Virus record (IMG/VR): IMGVR_UViG_3300037621_000028
Coordinates: 1 to 20,271 of that record
From: a virus
Strand: one strand, 5' to 3'
DNA: 20,271 nt
Shown piece after piece: positions 1,347-12,915 of this stretch. The notes beneath the pieces were generated by a model. That model had not been told where the DNA came from, searched no databases, and was given only the letters and a program-made list of their open reading frames with translations. The stretch's first letter is position 1. Each line of letters starts with the position of its first letter. The position numbers were made by a program, and so were the translations under genes.

Positions 1347-1466
1347 ATGACTAAAGAAAAAAAATCGGCAGAGAAAAAAGCTGCACCAAAAAAAGAAAAA
1401 AAAGTAGCTGCTCCAAAAACTAAACAACATTGGAATGGTGAAAGATATATAACTGTAAATATTTAA
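1347..1466 (+). CDS. tiny Lys/Ala-rich protein
   Basis: This 39-residue frame starts ATG four bases after the preceding stop. The first 26 residues are almost only K, E, A and P, with two KKxAAPK-like segments (near residues 10-15 and 19-24), resembling histone-tail or low-complexity linker sequence. The end is less biased (QHWNGERYITVNI). Strongly basic, so nucleic-acid binding is plausible. No family is recognised. Support comes from the tight spacing with neighbours in the same strand and the absence of any better frame. Confidence 0.6.
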   Translation: MTKEKKSAEKKAAPKKEKKVAAPKTKQHWNGERYITVNI

Positions 1467-1469
1467 ATT

Positions 1470-1625
1470 ATGCCTACTGTAAAACTACCTAACGGAACTA
1501 AAAGAACTTTTCCTTACAACGCTGTTGGAAAAGCTCAAGCCCATTCATTTATGAAAATGTCTAAAGGAAAAATTAAAAACAACCCTGGATACGGGATGGA
1601 GAAAAAAACAAAGTCCGGCTACTAA
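1470..1625 (+). CDS. tiny basic protein
   Basis: This 51-residue frame starts MPTVKLPNGTKRTFPYN, three bases after the previous stop, and ends in TAA that overlaps the next ATG by one base (TAATG). It contains an alanine-rich helix candidate (AVGKAQAHSFMKM, 18-30), and its last 20 residues are basic and Gly-rich. It is one of a chain of small basic genes. Function unknown. Confidence 0.65.
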   Translation: MPTVKLPNGTKRTFPYNAVGKAQAHSFMKMSKGKIKNNPGYGMEKKTKSGY

Positions 1626-1780
1626 TGGCTAAGAAAGGACGGACAAAGGGTAATAAGATATGCCCCGCAGGCATAGCATGGGCTAAGCGTACTTTCGACA
1701 AGTACCCCTCGGCTTATGCTAATATGGCGGCAAGTAAATATTGCAAGGACCCTAACTACGCTAAAAAAAGCAAGACATGA
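1625..1780 (+). CDS. tiny basic two-Cys protein (KYPSAYANMAASKYC type)
   Basis: This 51-residue protein begins MAKKGRTKG, then KICPAGIAWAKRTF and KYPSAYANMAASKYC, with cysteines at 13 and 40. The KYPSAYANM motif is one I recall from small proteins of marine phages and large DNA viruses, but I cannot name a family with certainty. The same MA..GRTK start and a Cys/Ala-rich core appear in the protein at 2827, so the two may be paralogues. It is coupled to both neighbours (TAATG upstream, ATGA downstream). Confidence 0.7.
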   Translation: MAKKGRTKGNKICPAGIAWAKRTFDKYPSAYANMAASKYCKDPNYAKKSKT

Positions 1781-1857
1781 AAAATCAACCTATATGCCAG
1801 TGCGGTAATACATCTAATGCAGATGGACACTGTGACGGATCACACTCAAATAAATAA
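1777..1857 (+). CDS. 26-residue CDGSH-like miniprotein
   Basis: The whole protein is a six-residue lead, CQCGNTSNADGHCDGSH (residues 7-23) and three more residues. CDGSH iron-sulfur proteins bind [2Fe-2S] through three Cys and one His in C-x-C-x2-(S/T)-x3-P-x-C-D-G-(S/A/T)-H. Here C7, C9, C19 and H23 are all present with the intact CDGSH block. The loop is one residue longer than the consensus and lacks the proline. Known CDGSH proteins are longer and usually dimeric, so this would be unusually minimal. The start overlaps the upstream stop (ATGA). A zinc site is an alternative. That the frame is coding is well supported by the motif itself. Confidence 0.7.
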   Translation: MKNQPICQCGNTSNADGHCDGSHSNK

Positions 1858-1859
1858 AA

Positions 1860-1982
1860 ATGAGCAAGCTAAGTAAAAAACAACGTAAAATTGCCAGAGC
1901 GGCAATGCCTTTTAATAAAATTACCGGAGCTGACTTCAAGGCTTTAAAATTAAAAAATGGGGGAGCTAAAAAAATGGCGTGA
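1860..1982 (+). CDS. tiny Lys-rich protein
   Basis: This 40-residue protein (MSKLSKKQRKIARAAMP, then ITGADFKALKLKNGGAKKMA) starts two bases after the CDGSH-like gene. It is strongly basic, with a probable amphipathic helix near 5-16. Its 3' end overlaps the next gene by 26 bases in a different frame, the longest overlap in this cluster. Function unknown; nucleic-acid binding is plausible from charge alone. Confidence 0.65.
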   Translation: MSKLSKKQRKIARAAMPFNKITGADFKALKLKNGGAKKMA

Positions 1983-2190
1983 TCAGAAGTGGGTTCGTAT
2001 AGGAACCGACGGAAAGATTAAAGGAGCGTGTGGAACAAGCAAAAATAAAAAAAACCCAGACCGATGTTTACCACTTGCTAAGGCGAAGCGGTTAAGTAAA
2101 AAAGCATTAGCTGCCACAGCTAAAAAAAAGAAAGCATCGGGTGGTAGAAAACAATTTGTAAGTAATACTAAAAAAGTAAAAAACGCATAA
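1957..2190 (+). CDS. small basic protein, DUF5872-like
   Basis: This 77-residue protein has W-R-D-Q-K-W-V-R-I near the start, a GKIKGACGTS segment, then NPDRCLPLAKAKRLSKKALAA and a Lys-rich tail. The order KWV, CG, Cys-x-P, then AKAxxxSK resembles, from memory, the DUF5872 family of small basic proteins in giant viruses and marine phages; this has not been searched. Its two cysteines (about 23 and 35) could bind metal if it dimerises. The stop overlaps the next ATG by one base (TAATG). Confidence 0.75.
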   Translation: MGELKKWRDQKWVRIGTDGKIKGACGTSKNKKNPDRCLPLAKAKRLSKKALAATAKKKKASGGRKQFVSNTKKVKNA

Positions 2191-2309
2191 TGGCTAAAAA
2201 ATTCAAACCTCATAAAATGTACAGTAAAACTGGAATAGTTAAGATGGCTAAAACCATGAAGGATCATCTGTCATTAAAAAAGAAAGGTTATAACCACACC
2301 AAAAAATAA
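2190..2309 (+). CDS. tiny basic protein
   Basis: This 39-residue protein contains KPHKMYSKTGIVKMAKTM, then DHLSLKKKGYNHTKK. It begins in a TAATG overlap and ends immediately before the next ATG with no gap. The KPHxMY...H...KxGYxHTK pattern recalls small conserved phage proteins of this type, without a known function. Confidence 0.65.
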   Translation: MAKKFKPHKMYSKTGIVKMAKTMKDHLSLKKKGYNHTKK

Positions 2310-2564
2310 ATGGCAACTCCCAGAAAAGGAAAGGCAAAAGTAAAAATTACCTCTACCGGTAAAAGAGTAAGCTACGGTCAGGCGGGTAAAGCTAAAGGCG
2401 GAGGCCCAAGGGTAAAGCCGGGTACTTCAAAGGGCGACAGTTACTGCGCAAGAAGCTTAGGTATAAAAAAACGCTTAAGCAAAAAGAAGCAGAACAATCC
2501 CAACACTCCAAACAATTTGTCGAGAAAGCGTTGGAAATGCGTTGGCGCAAAGTCTAAAAAATAA
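2310..2564 (+). CDS. small basic protein, DUF6321-like
   Basis: This 84-residue protein has a Lys/Gly-rich first half and a conserved-looking second half: SYCARSLGIKKR, then NNPNTPNNLSRKRWKC. The SYCARS...RKRWKC pattern resembles, from memory, DUF6321 proteins found in large DNA viruses and marine phages; no search was done. C46 and the C-terminal Cys near 77 flank a basic helix. It ends the first block of the cluster, and a promoter box follows 16 bases downstream. Confidence 0.75.
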   Translation: MATPRKGKAKVKITSTGKRVSYGQAGKAKGGGPRVKPGTSKGDSYCARSLGIKKRLSKKKQNNPNTPNNLSRKRWKCVGAKSKK

Positions 2565-2580
2565 GCAAAGAAAATATTAG

Positions 2581-2588
2581 TATCTTTG
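2581..2588 (+). promoter_or_regulatory. Bacteroidota-type -7 promoter box
   Basis: TATCTTTG is an exact TAnnTTTG match, extended as TATCTTTGTA. It lies in a 50-base A/T-rich gap, 26 bases before the ATG at 2615. It should start transcription of the second small-gene block and probably the structural genes that follow without gaps. No convincing -33 element is seen. Confidence 0.65.
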
Positions 2589-2614
2589 TATTTATAATTT
2601 AAAAATTTTCAATT

Positions 2615-2827
2615 ATGGATCAAGGATACAACGCTCGACTAGACGACTCTCTAGGAGCAAAAAACGGAAAAAAATCTCAAAGCTTTAAAGCACGTAGAGA
2701 CGAAAGCAAAGCTATGTCGAAAAAATTATACGGACACGCTTACGGTGGAGACCACTCAATGGTTCGCTCTTCACATTCTGAAGGCGGAAGTGTTAAACAA
2801 CACATAGGCTCTTTAATCAAAAAATAA
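2615..2827 (+). CDS. small basic hypothetical protein
   Basis: This 70-residue hydrophilic protein (DQGYNARLDDSLGAKNG, then SFKARRDESKAMSKK, then KLYGHAYGGDHSM, with IGSLIKK at the end) is first behind the promoter at 2581. It has no cysteine and no membrane segment, and several residues typical of small virion proteins. The stop overlaps the next ATG by one base. Function unknown. Confidence 0.75.
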   Translation: MDQGYNARLDDSLGAKNGKKSQSFKARRDESKAMSKKLYGHAYGGDHSMVRSSHSEGGSVKQHIGSLIKK

Positions 2828-3033
2828 TGGCAGTAAGAGGCAGAACTAAGAAAGGTGCTTTTCCAGAGATAAAGGAAAAGAACCAAGGCAAGTTTACTCG
2901 TTGGGTAAAAAACAATATGCCTGGCAAAAGCACTTGTAGTGCTGCATCGTCTGTAATGAAAAGCAAGGGCAAGTATTCTAAAGGTGTAGTGGCCATGGCC
3001 AACTATGCTAATAATTTTGGATGTAAAAAATAA
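2827..3033 (+). CDS. small basic two-Cys protein, possible paralogue of the gene at 1625
   Basis: This 68-residue protein starts MAVRGRTKKG and continues with KSTCSAASSVMKSKGKYSK and MANYANNFGCKK, with cysteines near 38 and 66. Start, charge and two-Cys layout parallel the 51-residue protein at 1625. A divergent duplication is possible, but the similarity is too weak by eye to be certain. It is coupled to the upstream gene by a one-base overlap. Confidence 0.75.
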   Translation: MAVRGRTKKGAFPEIKEKNQGKFTRWVKNNMPGKSTCSAASSVMKSKGKYSKGVVAMANYANNFGCKK

Positions 3034-3037
3034 GTAA

Positions 3038-3184
3038 ATGAAATCAAGAGGGTTCGGAGATACAGTTGCAAAGTTCACAAAAGCCACAGGTATAAAATCA
3101 TTTGTAGATAAAGTTACAGATGGCGACTGTGGGTGCGATGATCGGCGCGACACCCTAAATCGAGTATTTCCATATAAAAGATAA
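3038..3184 (+). CDS. small protein with CxCDxRR...FPYKR motif
   Basis: This 48-residue protein reads GFGDTVAKFTKATGIKSFVD, then DCGCDDRRDTLNRVFPYKR. The G-x-G-D-T...K-A-T-G-I-K and C-x-C-D-x-R-R-x-x-L-N-x-x-F-P-Y arrangement is one I recall as recurrent in Bacteroidota phages, with no established function. C31 and C33 could be half of a metal knuckle in an oligomer. It begins four bases after the previous stop and ends five bases before the structural gene at 3190. Confidence 0.75.
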   Translation: MKSRGFGDTVAKFTKATGIKSFVDKVTDGDCGCDDRRDTLNRVFPYKR

Positions 3185-11061: not shown

Positions 11062-11203
11062 CCTTAAAATCTACGCTTTAACAGTAGGCGCTTTAGCTAC
11101 ATCAATGACAAATATTGATGTGGTGCTTAAAATTATAGCTACTGCTGTAGCCATAGGATATACCTTGCACAAATGGTATATAATGTATGGAAAGAATAAG
11201 TGA
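11030..11203 (+). CDS. small two-helix holin candidate
   Basis: This 57-residue protein begins MLNLKKISVTDLK, then a helix over about 14-27 (IYALTVGALATSM), a short NID turn, a second hydrophobic helix over 31-46 (VVLKIIATAVAIGYTL) and a basic end (YGKNK). Size, two membrane segments and charged ends are those of class II holins, which open the inner membrane to release endolysin. It overlaps the endolysin gene by 17 bases, the usual holin-lysin arrangement. No sequence family was recognised, so the call rests on topology and position. Confidence 0.65.
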   Translation: MLNLKKISVTDLKIYALTVGALATSMTNIDVVLKIIATAVAIGYTLHKWYIMYGKNK

Positions 11204-11648
11204 GCACGTATCGTACAAAGAAGGAGTTCGCTCTAATACTGCTACAAGATTAAATCTTGATAATACGCCTAGCTCGTATGAGCTTTCCAACATGGGCATT
11301 CTTACCGATAACATATTTGAGCCTTTGCGTAAATGGGTAGGAGGCCCAATAAAGATAAACTCTTTCTTCAGATGTGAAAATTTAAATAAGGCCATTGGCG
11401 GAAGTTCTCGATCGCAACATTGTGAGGGACGCGCGATTGACCTAGATGATACCTTCGGACACAAAACAAATGCTGAGATGTTTCAGTATATAAAAGAAAA
11501 CCTTAACTACGATCAGATTATATGGGAGTTTGGTGATGACACTAATCCTGATTGGGTACACGTAAGCTATGTTTCTGATAATGAGAACAGAGGAAGAGCT
11601 TTAAGGGCAGTAAAAGAAAGTGGTAAAACAGCTTATCAAATATTATGA
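11187..11648 (+). CDS. endolysin, M15-type peptidase
   Basis: This 153-residue protein carries the M15/VanY-like zinc peptidase signature: S-x-H-x-x-G-x-A-x-D-L-D (S76, H78, G81, D85) and W-V-H125-V-S. H78, D85 and H125 are the expected zinc ligands, and E114 in WEF is a catalytic candidate. An earlier conserved segment, PIKINSFFRC (54-63), matches the strand before the zinc site in M15_3-like enzymes. It should cleave peptide cross-links in peptidoglycan at the end of infection. There is no signal peptide, so a holin is needed. The holin-like gene overlaps upstream and a second holin-like gene overlaps downstream (ATGA). Confidence 0.88.
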   Translation: MERISEHVSYKEGVRSNTATRLNLDNTPSSYELSNMGILTDNIFEPLRKWVGGPIKINSFFRCENLNKAIGGSSRSQHCEGRAIDLDDTFGHKTNAEMFQYIKENLNYDQIIWEFGDDTNPDWVHVSYVSDNENRGRALRAVKESGKTAYQIL

Positions 11649-12073
11649 GTAAAACTAAAAAACCTTTTAAAGAAACAGGCGTTGGCAAATTCCTAATCAA
11701 CAAAGCCCCGTCTATACTAGGAATGGTAGGCGATGCATTCTTACCCGGTAATGTTATATCAGAACTAATAAGCGGCAACAAAGAGCTCTCTGAGGGAGAC
11801 AAGGCGATAGCTCTTGAAAAGCTTAGAGTAGAGCGTGCAGAAATAGATGGTGTAACTAGGCGCTGGGTCTCAGACTCACAAAGCCAAAGTTGGCTAGCTA
11901 GAAATGTACGTCCTTTAACATTAGTAACTTTAGTTGGAGCATATGTGGGCGGATGGTATATGGGGCTAGAGACTTCAGACACCGCTTCGCTTTTGACATG
12001 GGTCCTCTGCGGATACTTCGGAGCGAGAACGGCAGATAAGATAGGAGTAAAGTTTCCAGGCAAAAAAAGCTAA
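11645..12073 (+). CDS. holin-like membrane protein (3TM-holin/GTA-holin type)
   Basis: This 142-residue protein has a soluble N-terminal half with a charged helix (about 47-75, LSEGDKAIALEKLRVERAEI), then SDSQSQSWLARNVRPLTL (77-93) and two hydrophobic segments (about 91-107 and 114-128). The S-x-SWLxRNxRPL box before the membrane region is what I recall from GTA_holin_3TM-type proteins. It overlaps the endolysin stop by four bases (ATGA). It may be the effective holin, a partner of the smaller candidate at 11030, or an antiholin. It is the last gene before the next promoter. Confidence 0.72.
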   Translation: MSKTKKPFKETGVGKFLINKAPSILGMVGDAFLPGNVISELISGNKELSEGDKAIALEKLRVERAEIDGVTRRWVSDSQSQSWLARNVRPLTLVTLVGAYVGGWYMGLETSDTASLLTWVLCGYFGARTADKIGVKFPGKKS

Positions 12074-12127: not shown

Positions 12128-12352
12128 ATGGATATAAGGAAAATTTCTGTAGGACCAGATTATAAGTCTGGAGCGATGCACTACTTAGTGGGTCAAGAGA
12201 TTTTAAATGGTCAATATTTTATTCACTTAATTCAGCAAGACTCGGAAACTGATTCAATAAAAATATGGATTCAACGAAAAGATGAAATATTATTATGGAA
12301 AGAATTTAAATCTTATGTCCCCGTATCTATAGAATATAATATTAACTTTTAA
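12128..12352 (+). CDS. conserved-looking small hypothetical protein
   Basis: This 74-residue protein runs from the ATG at 12128. A TTG 33 bases upstream would also be in frame, but it lies at the promoter box, so it is rejected. Sequence: MDIRKISVGPDYKSGAMHYL, then a beta-rich middle (YFIHLIQQDSE, IKIWIQRKD) and LLWKEFKSYVPVSIEYNINF. It looks like a compact soluble beta domain, and I recall similar small proteins in other marine phages without known function. It heads the operon carrying the packaging genes, and its stop overlaps the next ATG by one base (TAATG). Confidence 0.75.
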   Translation: MDIRKISVGPDYKSGAMHYLVGQEILNGQYFIHLIQQDSETDSIKIWIQRKDEILLWKEFKSYVPVSIEYNINF

Positions 12353-12915
12353 TGCAATCACCTTTTTATTTTATAGTCAAACCTTTAGAAGGTAAAAGAT
12401 ATAATAACACTAAGAAAATAGGAGATGTTAATTTTATTACTAGCACTTCTGAAGAAGATTTCAAGGCGTCTAATCGAAAAGGTATTGTTGAACAAACACC
12501 ATTAAATTATCAAGGGCCTATAGCTAAAGGTGATACGCTGTTAGTACATCATAATGTTTTTAAGTTTTATAACGACATGAAGGGTAGACAGAAAAGCGGT
12601 AAGAGTTATTTTAAAGATGATTTGTTTTTTGTAGACAACGATCAGTTTTATATGTACAACCACGACAACCAATGGTTTAGCCACGACAGGTACTGCTTTG
12701 TAAAGCCAATTGATGTACAAAAATCATTTATGTTTAAACGTGGCAATGAAGAACCTCTTATGGCAGAAATGGTGTATGCTAATTATTATCTCCAAACTCA
12801 AGGCGTTATCAACGGAAGCCAAGTAAGTTTTCAGCCAGACAGTGAATATGAGTTTGAGGTTGATGGAGAAAAACTCTATAGAATGTTTGATCACCAAATA
12901 ACTTTAAAGTTATGA
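12352..12915 (+). CDS. hypothetical beta-rich protein, weakly GroES-barrel-like
   Basis: This 187-residue soluble protein contains NRKGIVEQTPLNYQGPIAKG, then DTLLVHHNVFKFYNDMKGR (about 41-79), and CFVKPIDV near 115-122. The order G-I-V...I-x-x-G-D-x-L-x-x-H, followed later by a short strand and a closing V-K-P-I, resembles the barrel of Cpn10-like proteins, but the N-terminal mobile loop is not visible, so no function is assigned. It overlaps its upstream neighbour by one base and the oxygenase-like gene downstream by four (ATGA), so it is tightly coupled to the packaging operon. Confidence 0.7.
   Translation: MQSPFYFIVKPLEGKRYNNTKKIGDVNFITSTSEEDFKASNRKGIVEQTPLNYQGPIAKGDTLLVHHNVFKFYNDMKGRQKSGKSYFKDDLFFVDNDQFYMYNHDNQWFSHDRYCFVKPIDVQKSFMFKRGNEEPLMAEMVYANYYLQTQGVINGSQVSFQPDSEYEFEVDGEKLYRMFDHQITLKL

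Follow-up and report, generated by a model that had tools for sequence, protein, structure and literature searches.

Can a reading frame of 26 codons, 17 of which make up a single CDGSH-type motif, be a gene in its own right and, if so, what could so small a protein do? The question is raised by a marine phage, known from a virus record of 20,271 bases, the whole of which was analysed and is called the window below. The terminase encoded there shares 75% identity with that of MW202828.1, whose podovirus-like genome includes a P22-like portal along with groEL and groES, and about 47% with the terminases of Flavobacterium phages of the elemo group. The features on which the argument draws are given here, x9 denoting nine residues between the second and the third cysteine of the motif.

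286–543: GroES gene.
998–1342, + strand: membrane/coiled-coil protein of cluster c1, with a weak Rz-like spanin match (E=0.0035).
1347–3184, + strand: array of tiny, mostly basic genes, with the CDGSH gene as an accessory member, from locus comparison.
1625–1780, + strand: 51-aa basic protein, phrog_27331, whose stop codon overlaps the CDGSH gene start (ATGA).
1777–1857, + strand: 26-aa x9-CDGSH mini-protein, MKNQPICQCGNTSNADGHCDGSHSNK, from ORF translation, motif and conservation.
1860–1982, + strand: 40-aa basic small ORF directly 3′ of the CDGSH gene, from neighbourhood comparison.
11187–11648, + strand: M15 peptidase endolysin, phrog_894, about 9.4 kb from the CDGSH gene.
11645–12073, + strand: holin, phrog_3427.

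The MKNQPICQCGNTSNADGHCDGSHSNK ORF ends with a TAA stop codon, and its cysteines and histidine are spaced as C-x-C-x9-C-x3-H; we propose C7, C9, C19 and H23 as putative metal ligands. A first-pass annotation of this DNA had stated that the motif occupies 17 of the 26 residues and that ATGA couples the gene to the one before it, and both statements were borne out when the ORF was read. The base composition of the window predicts about 7e-6 occurrences of a motif of this kind, with either eight (x8) or nine residues in the loop, over its whole length. Over the 17 motif codons of the eight nearest copies, pN was 0.061 and pS 0.655, giving a pN/pS of 0.093; synonymous sites are saturated among the nearest phage relatives, and non-synonymous changes are few. 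Since five of the eight sequences were fetched through a neighbouring gene and not by the motif pattern, this conservation is not just an effect of the search. In each of four close relatives (L253, L254, L281 and L282), the CDGSH gene likewise shares four bases with its upstream gene, which is a different gene from that of the window. These results show that 1777–1857 is a real protein-coding gene under purifying selection, as the first-pass annotation had taken it to be.

Two other origins of the frame were rejected: a chance ORF, on the pN/pS ratio and the expected number of motifs, and a fragment of a longer CDGSH protein, on the stop codon that lies five codons upstream of the start and on the equal length of the relatives. 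Sequence of the CGNTQNPEGYCDGSH type among metaproteome peptides of marine viruses or Flavobacteriales would prove that the mini-protein is expressed.

The x9 motif was found in at least 120 IMG/VR stretches and at least 120 stretches of bacterial genomes, with a viral scan pattern that fixed only CxCG and CDGxH and a slightly tighter bacterial one. The subclass motif is C-x-C-G-x-[ST]-x-x-x-x-G-x-C-D-G-[ST]-H. Among the matches listed, position 6 is T or S in 86 of 90 distinct viral x9 motifs and position 11 is G in 83 of them, both positions having been left free by the viral search pattern. Where x9 forms have this fixed glycine, sequences of classical spacing have proline (81 of 82); an N/D-x-x-G turn, often NPDG, replaces the classical x-P. 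In about half of the x9 relatives among the matches listed, a proline precedes the conserved glycine by two positions (NPxG), elsewhere than the classical CDGSH proline, so the earlier statement that the motif lacks proline holds for the window copy but not for these relatives.

Sixty of the 119 viral x9 proteins among the matches listed are shorter than 30 aa. The mini-protein family spans 22–30 aa, and cellular x9 forms of 24–30 aa occur in Flavobacteriales and Paenibacillus. Each mini-protein copy read retains all three cysteines and the histidine, and this extends to the copies obtained with an HMM or through a neighbouring gene; the homologues in related phages, on whose conserved ligands the first-pass annotation had made its reading depend, are thus present with all of them. 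Against the Pfam model PF09360 (zf-CDGSH), MKNQPICQCGNTSNADGHCDGSHSNK scores 11.9 bits, below the cut-off of 29.5, and it matched no PHROGs or NCBIfam model. Because it scores under the Pfam threshold and is covered by neither NCBIfam nor PHROGs models, the family has no name in phages or hosts, in line with the earlier remark that genes this short are often missed. Searching 50,697 phage records by tblastn with the 26-, 43- and 108-aa forms gave no match, so that at tblastn sensitivity the peptide could be traced to no cultured phage; a search with the cluster c1 protein likewise located none, and a plasmid search returned matches at chance level only. Judged by their sequences, the x9 mini-proteins are a widespread, uncatalogued family.

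The x9 module is also found in longer proteins. It forms the C-terminus of XkdF-type phage proteases (L041, L060, L067, L070, L074, L124 and L129, that of L041 being a Peptidase_S78_2 match), a tail on PSP1/RicT-like proteins of Flavobacteriales (L350, L441 and L452) and on ribosomal protein S16 (L431), and an N-terminal fusion to YceI (L359, 902–1564, − strand; L374, 7624–7998, + strand; L470, 1432–2145, + strand). WYL_2 proteins are a further fusion partner. Tandem two-motif x9 proteins, mostly of 54–63 aa, occur in Opitutae and other genomes (L348, L360, L385, L386, L388, L401, L405, L416, L429, L433 and L444) and possibly represent an intramolecular pair; the AlphaFold model of the tandem Opitutae form had a mean pLDDT of 59 and was unusable. 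A separate subgroup, CKCGCTNNPEGYCDGSH, has a fourth cysteine within the loop (L019, L024, L035, L095 and relatives) and sits in a c1–CDGSH–c7 lysis layout. Phage 2OG-Fe(II) oxygenases (L145, L191, L193 and others; PF13640 in L191) begin with a module of classical spacing.

We then considered how the x9 module relates to CDGSH iron-sulfur domains. The published consensus, PhiCXCXX(S/T)XXXPPhiCDG(S/T/A)H, places eight residues between the second and third cysteines (PMC3174974), and the first-pass annotation was correct in counting one residue more. In a profile search of 177,635 PDB sequences, the three best matches were 3tbm, 3tbn and 3tbo (E=0.0012–0.028); the title of 3tbm names a type 4 CDGSH iron-sulfur protein, CDGSH motifs are also present in 3tbn and 3tbo, and a gap of one residue appears in the alignments. 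In orthologous phage WYL_2 proteins, the same place is taken by either an x8 or an x9 module, of which the x8 form exceeds the Pfam cut-off. Because the top PDB matches are CDGSH proteins and the WYL_2 fusions use either loop, the x9 module is a variant CDGSH module; we describe it as a descendant or close relative of the CDGSH loop and outside types 1–7. The longer loop and glycine turn found across the x9 relatives agree with the earlier suggestion of a CDGSH-related motif in a distinct subclass. The model of a 30-aa member (L333) had a mean pLDDT of 72, with 76–80 over the motif, and its sole PDB fold match at E<=10 was 3tbm, a weak one (E=6.5, rmsd 1.3, 19 columns) that is weakly consistent with CDGSH kinship.

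The selected peptide consists of the metal-binding loop only, that is, three cysteines and one histidine together with the S/T, D and G known from CDGSH domains, and it very probably binds metal. The metal is more probably a [2Fe-2S] cluster than zinc. The main rival to a [2Fe-2S] redox peptide is a retroviral-like knuckle holding mononuclear zinc (or iron), in which the 17-residue loop would fold around one metal ion, and which would serve as a protein- or nucleic-acid-binding tag. The motif by itself is of zinc-knuckle size, the module is joined to unrelated proteins at either end (XkdF protease, WYL_2, S16, PSP1/RicT), and the window copy stands amid basic tiny proteins. A zinc knuckle would also accord with the loss of the cluster-shielding NEET dimer interface and lid. 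According to Lin et al. 2011 (PMC3174974), P11 is universally conserved in CDGSH domains, and none of the structures they describe lacks the N-strand, the P motif or the beta-sandwich dimer. The mini-proteins have lost P11, and Phi1 is hydrophobic in only 11% of them, the window copy having Ile there; the window copy has a P motif neither before nor after its CDGSH motif. Because the dimer interface (Phi1, P11 and beta-sandwich) is missing, the usual NEET dimer is disfavoured; the tandem forms of Opitutae suggest that modules could pair. However, the mini-proteins retain the Asp, Gly and Ser of CDGSH, residues that never vary among the known cluster-binding structures, classical-spacing relatives exceed the Pfam CDGSH cut-off, and the host context is redox-like (FMN reductase, pirin and YceI). 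We consider the zinc knuckle unlikely and retain the [2Fe-2S] peptide as the preferred reading.

The host context was sampled with an HMM in 201 genomes, all from the family to which Polaribacter glomeratus, itself a carrier of the mini-CDGSH–YceI pair, belongs. The mini-protein was present in 13 of them, in 14 copies, nine of which adjoin a YceI gene and one of which is fused to YceI. As genomes of this family have only 0–9 YceI genes, such adjacency would be rare by chance. YceI also lies within 4.5 kb in 62 motif-found bacterial loci among the matches listed; in the motif-found loci it is nearly always the gene directly before the mini-CDGSH gene, within several unrelated flanks. Some of these operons continue with an NADPH-dependent FMN reductase (FMN_red) and a pirin, the latter named by eye, and other host loci have MarR or HxlR regulators upstream. 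YceI proteins bind isoprenoids such as ubiquinone-8 (PMC9113575). In the fusions L359 and L374, the module is followed by a hydrophobic, anchor-like segment and then by YceI, which would place module and YceI on opposite sides of the inner membrane. By eye, the YceI proteins of mini-CDGSH operons begin with a signal-like segment, and YceI and the mini-protein may therefore lie on opposite sides of the membrane there as well. No paper on a CDGSH–YceI pairing turned up among the open-access papers searched.

For the phages, neighbours were clustered around 83 stand-alone x9 loci with 70 distinct peptides, among the matches listed. The holin phrog_3427 and the M15 endolysin phrog_894 recur as neighbours: among the matches listed, one or the other lies within 1.5 kb, at a median of about 0.4 kb, in 47 of the 52 loci that contain either, compared with a mean of 20.9 and a maximum of 32 loci for random positions (2000 draws), the lysis families having been chosen after the neighbourhoods had been inspected and the loci being phylogenetically non-independent (three holin groups at 50% identity). 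One layout is membrane gene c1–CDGSH–small membrane gene–(endolysin)–holin; others are endolysin–holin–CDGSH, CDGSH–endolysin and holin–CDGSH. No YceI or FMN reductase was seen in an unsystematic look at peptide-carrying phages. No open-access paper was found that connects CDGSH with holins, auxiliary metabolic genes or viral genomes.

Two side observations concern these loci. In one phage group, a thioredoxin-like protein with a signal-like start is encoded near the mini-CDGSH gene (L071, 8436–8792; L082, L130, L038, L103 and L064). In L089 and L092, the mini-CDGSH gene comes just before a 530-aa gene, GroEL-like in its size and order and thus a putative GroEL, which is followed by a gene of the window GroES family.

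A recurrent place beside holin and endolysin in several layouts (5′ of endolysin, 3′ of holin, or in the interval between c1 and the small membrane gene) would also be expected of a lysis-timing factor, a peptide that senses oxidant, NO or the redox state of the membrane and modulates holin triggering. Yet accessory-gene hot spots in the late region would look alike, a physical link to holin is absent, and the lysis region of the related Nonlabens phage P12024L has no CDGSH motif. In the window, moreover, endolysin and holin (11187–12073) lie about 9.4 kb from the CDGSH gene, a distance usually below 1.5 kb in relatives; the lysis link is therefore a trend of the family and not a property of this locus. 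We regard a lysis-timing role as distinctly improbable.

The window copy belongs to the array of tiny genes, which is flanked by the GroES and membrane/coiled-coil genes on one side and by tail-fibre genes on the other. The membrane/coiled-coil gene, of the c1 family, lies 0.4 kb upstream of the CDGSH gene, and a c1-family gene directly precedes the CDGSH gene and lysis genes in many other phages. In L253, L281 and L282, too, the CDGSH gene is followed by the 40-aa ORF or one like it; in L254 a different small ORF takes this place. Gene order in the array is shuffled between phages. Counting the window, the CDGSH gene is close by in just six of 81 loci bearing phrog_27331, as might be expected of a marginal accessory gene, or one with no metal, selected for something other than metal binding within a freely shuffling set of small late genes. 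The intact cysteines and histidine of every copy and the pN/pS of 0.09 make this very improbable, and we keep to a metal-binding redox peptide.

Elsewhere in the window, 12352–12915 gives a second GroES-phrog match (phrog_13932, E 1.9e-17), besides the GroES gene at 286–543. The 161-aa protein of 12912–13397 matches phrog_1644 (minor coat protein); by eye it resembles a 2OG-Fe(II) hydroxylase, in disagreement with that annotation.

The reading that we prefer, and to which we give not quite half of our confidence, is a free-standing miniature CDGSH-type redox module with a YceI partner in hosts and a late accessory copy in phages. The mini-protein would hold a [2Fe-2S] cluster by Cys3His1 ligation and serve as a very small redox carrier. 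In marine Flavobacteriales, electrons would pass from reduced flavin (NAD(P)H-FMN reductase) through the mini-protein to an isoprenoid or quinone held by YceI, a route proposed by analogy with mitoNEET, which links FMNH2 to ubiquinone, and with the YceI–cytochrome b561 pair of proteobacteria. We put forward this electron transfer in hosts as a tentative possibility. For phages of marine Flavobacteriales, a copy of their own would serve as a late accessory gene, mostly in or near the lysis module, keeping membrane redox chemistry going, or tuning it, until lysis; that phages use the same chemistry late in infection is the more doubtful part. Against the preferred reading stand the lack of an N-strand, P motif and beta-sandwich, the possible location of YceI and mini-protein on opposite sides of the membrane, the phages seen with the peptide but with no YceI or FMN reductase in an unsystematic look, the 9.4 kb to the lysis genes in the window and the non-independence of the phage loci. 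Somewhat unlikely, in our estimate, is a further CDGSH type, an autonomous [2Fe-2S] module of about 17 residues that needs no beta-sandwich, acts as redox partner of YceI lipocalins in marine Flavobacteriales and has been taken up into phage late or lysis regions. The first-pass annotation, right about gene, motif, subclass and homologues, had overlooked the YceI counterparts in hosts and the lysis neighbourhood in phages, and its interpretation stands in part.

The x9 mini-form and its pairing with YceI or lysis genes were found here and are absent from the solved structures, curated models and open-access papers searched. If the cluster is held, these peptides would rank with the smallest iron-sulfur proteins in nature, and the CDGSH loop would work without the fold thought to define CDGSH. 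The YceI pairing offers a concrete, testable function for CDGSH proteins of bacteria that abound in the ocean; the copies in phages would form a class of redox accessory gene overlooked owing to its size.

Compared with known systems, the x9 mini-proteins share C-x-C, CDG[ST]H and the order of ligands with CDGSH domains (PF09360, types 1–7), as well as an S/T three residues past the second cysteine (motif position 7; T12 in the window). They differ in that CDGSH domains have an x8 loop with P11, whereas the whole x9 subclass has nine residues, a glycine turn and no P11. Their 22–30 aa leave no room for the N-strand, the P motif with its lid-proline and the beta-sandwich; even the type 3 protein PcCISD has 53 aa. 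Short phage peptides of classical spacing (for example L143 and L195, 24 aa) are equally short, stand alone and lie in viral contigs, but they have x8 with proline; L195 and a 34-aa classical-spacing relative exceed the Pfam cut-off, unlike MKNQPICQCGNTSNADGHCDGSHSNK, and the x9 holin and endolysin profiles gave no match near these peptides. The CCHC-type zinc knuckle has the ligand spacing C-x2-C-x4-H-x4-C, which MKNQPICQCGNTSNADGHCDGSHSNK does not match.

MitoNEET transfers electrons from FMNH2 to ubiquinone together with a flavin reductase (PMC9490426), a likeness to the host operons that combine mini-CDGSH, NADPH-dependent FMN reductase and a YceI lipocalin, although the mini-protein itself has no membrane anchor. 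Finally, YceI pairs or fuses with cytochrome b561 in a system that detoxifies lipid peroxyl radicals (PMC9113575). As in that YceI/BcnA–cytochrome b561 system, the YceI gene here is paired, and sometimes fused, with a putative redox partner, but the partner is the mini-CDGSH protein in place of cytochrome b561.
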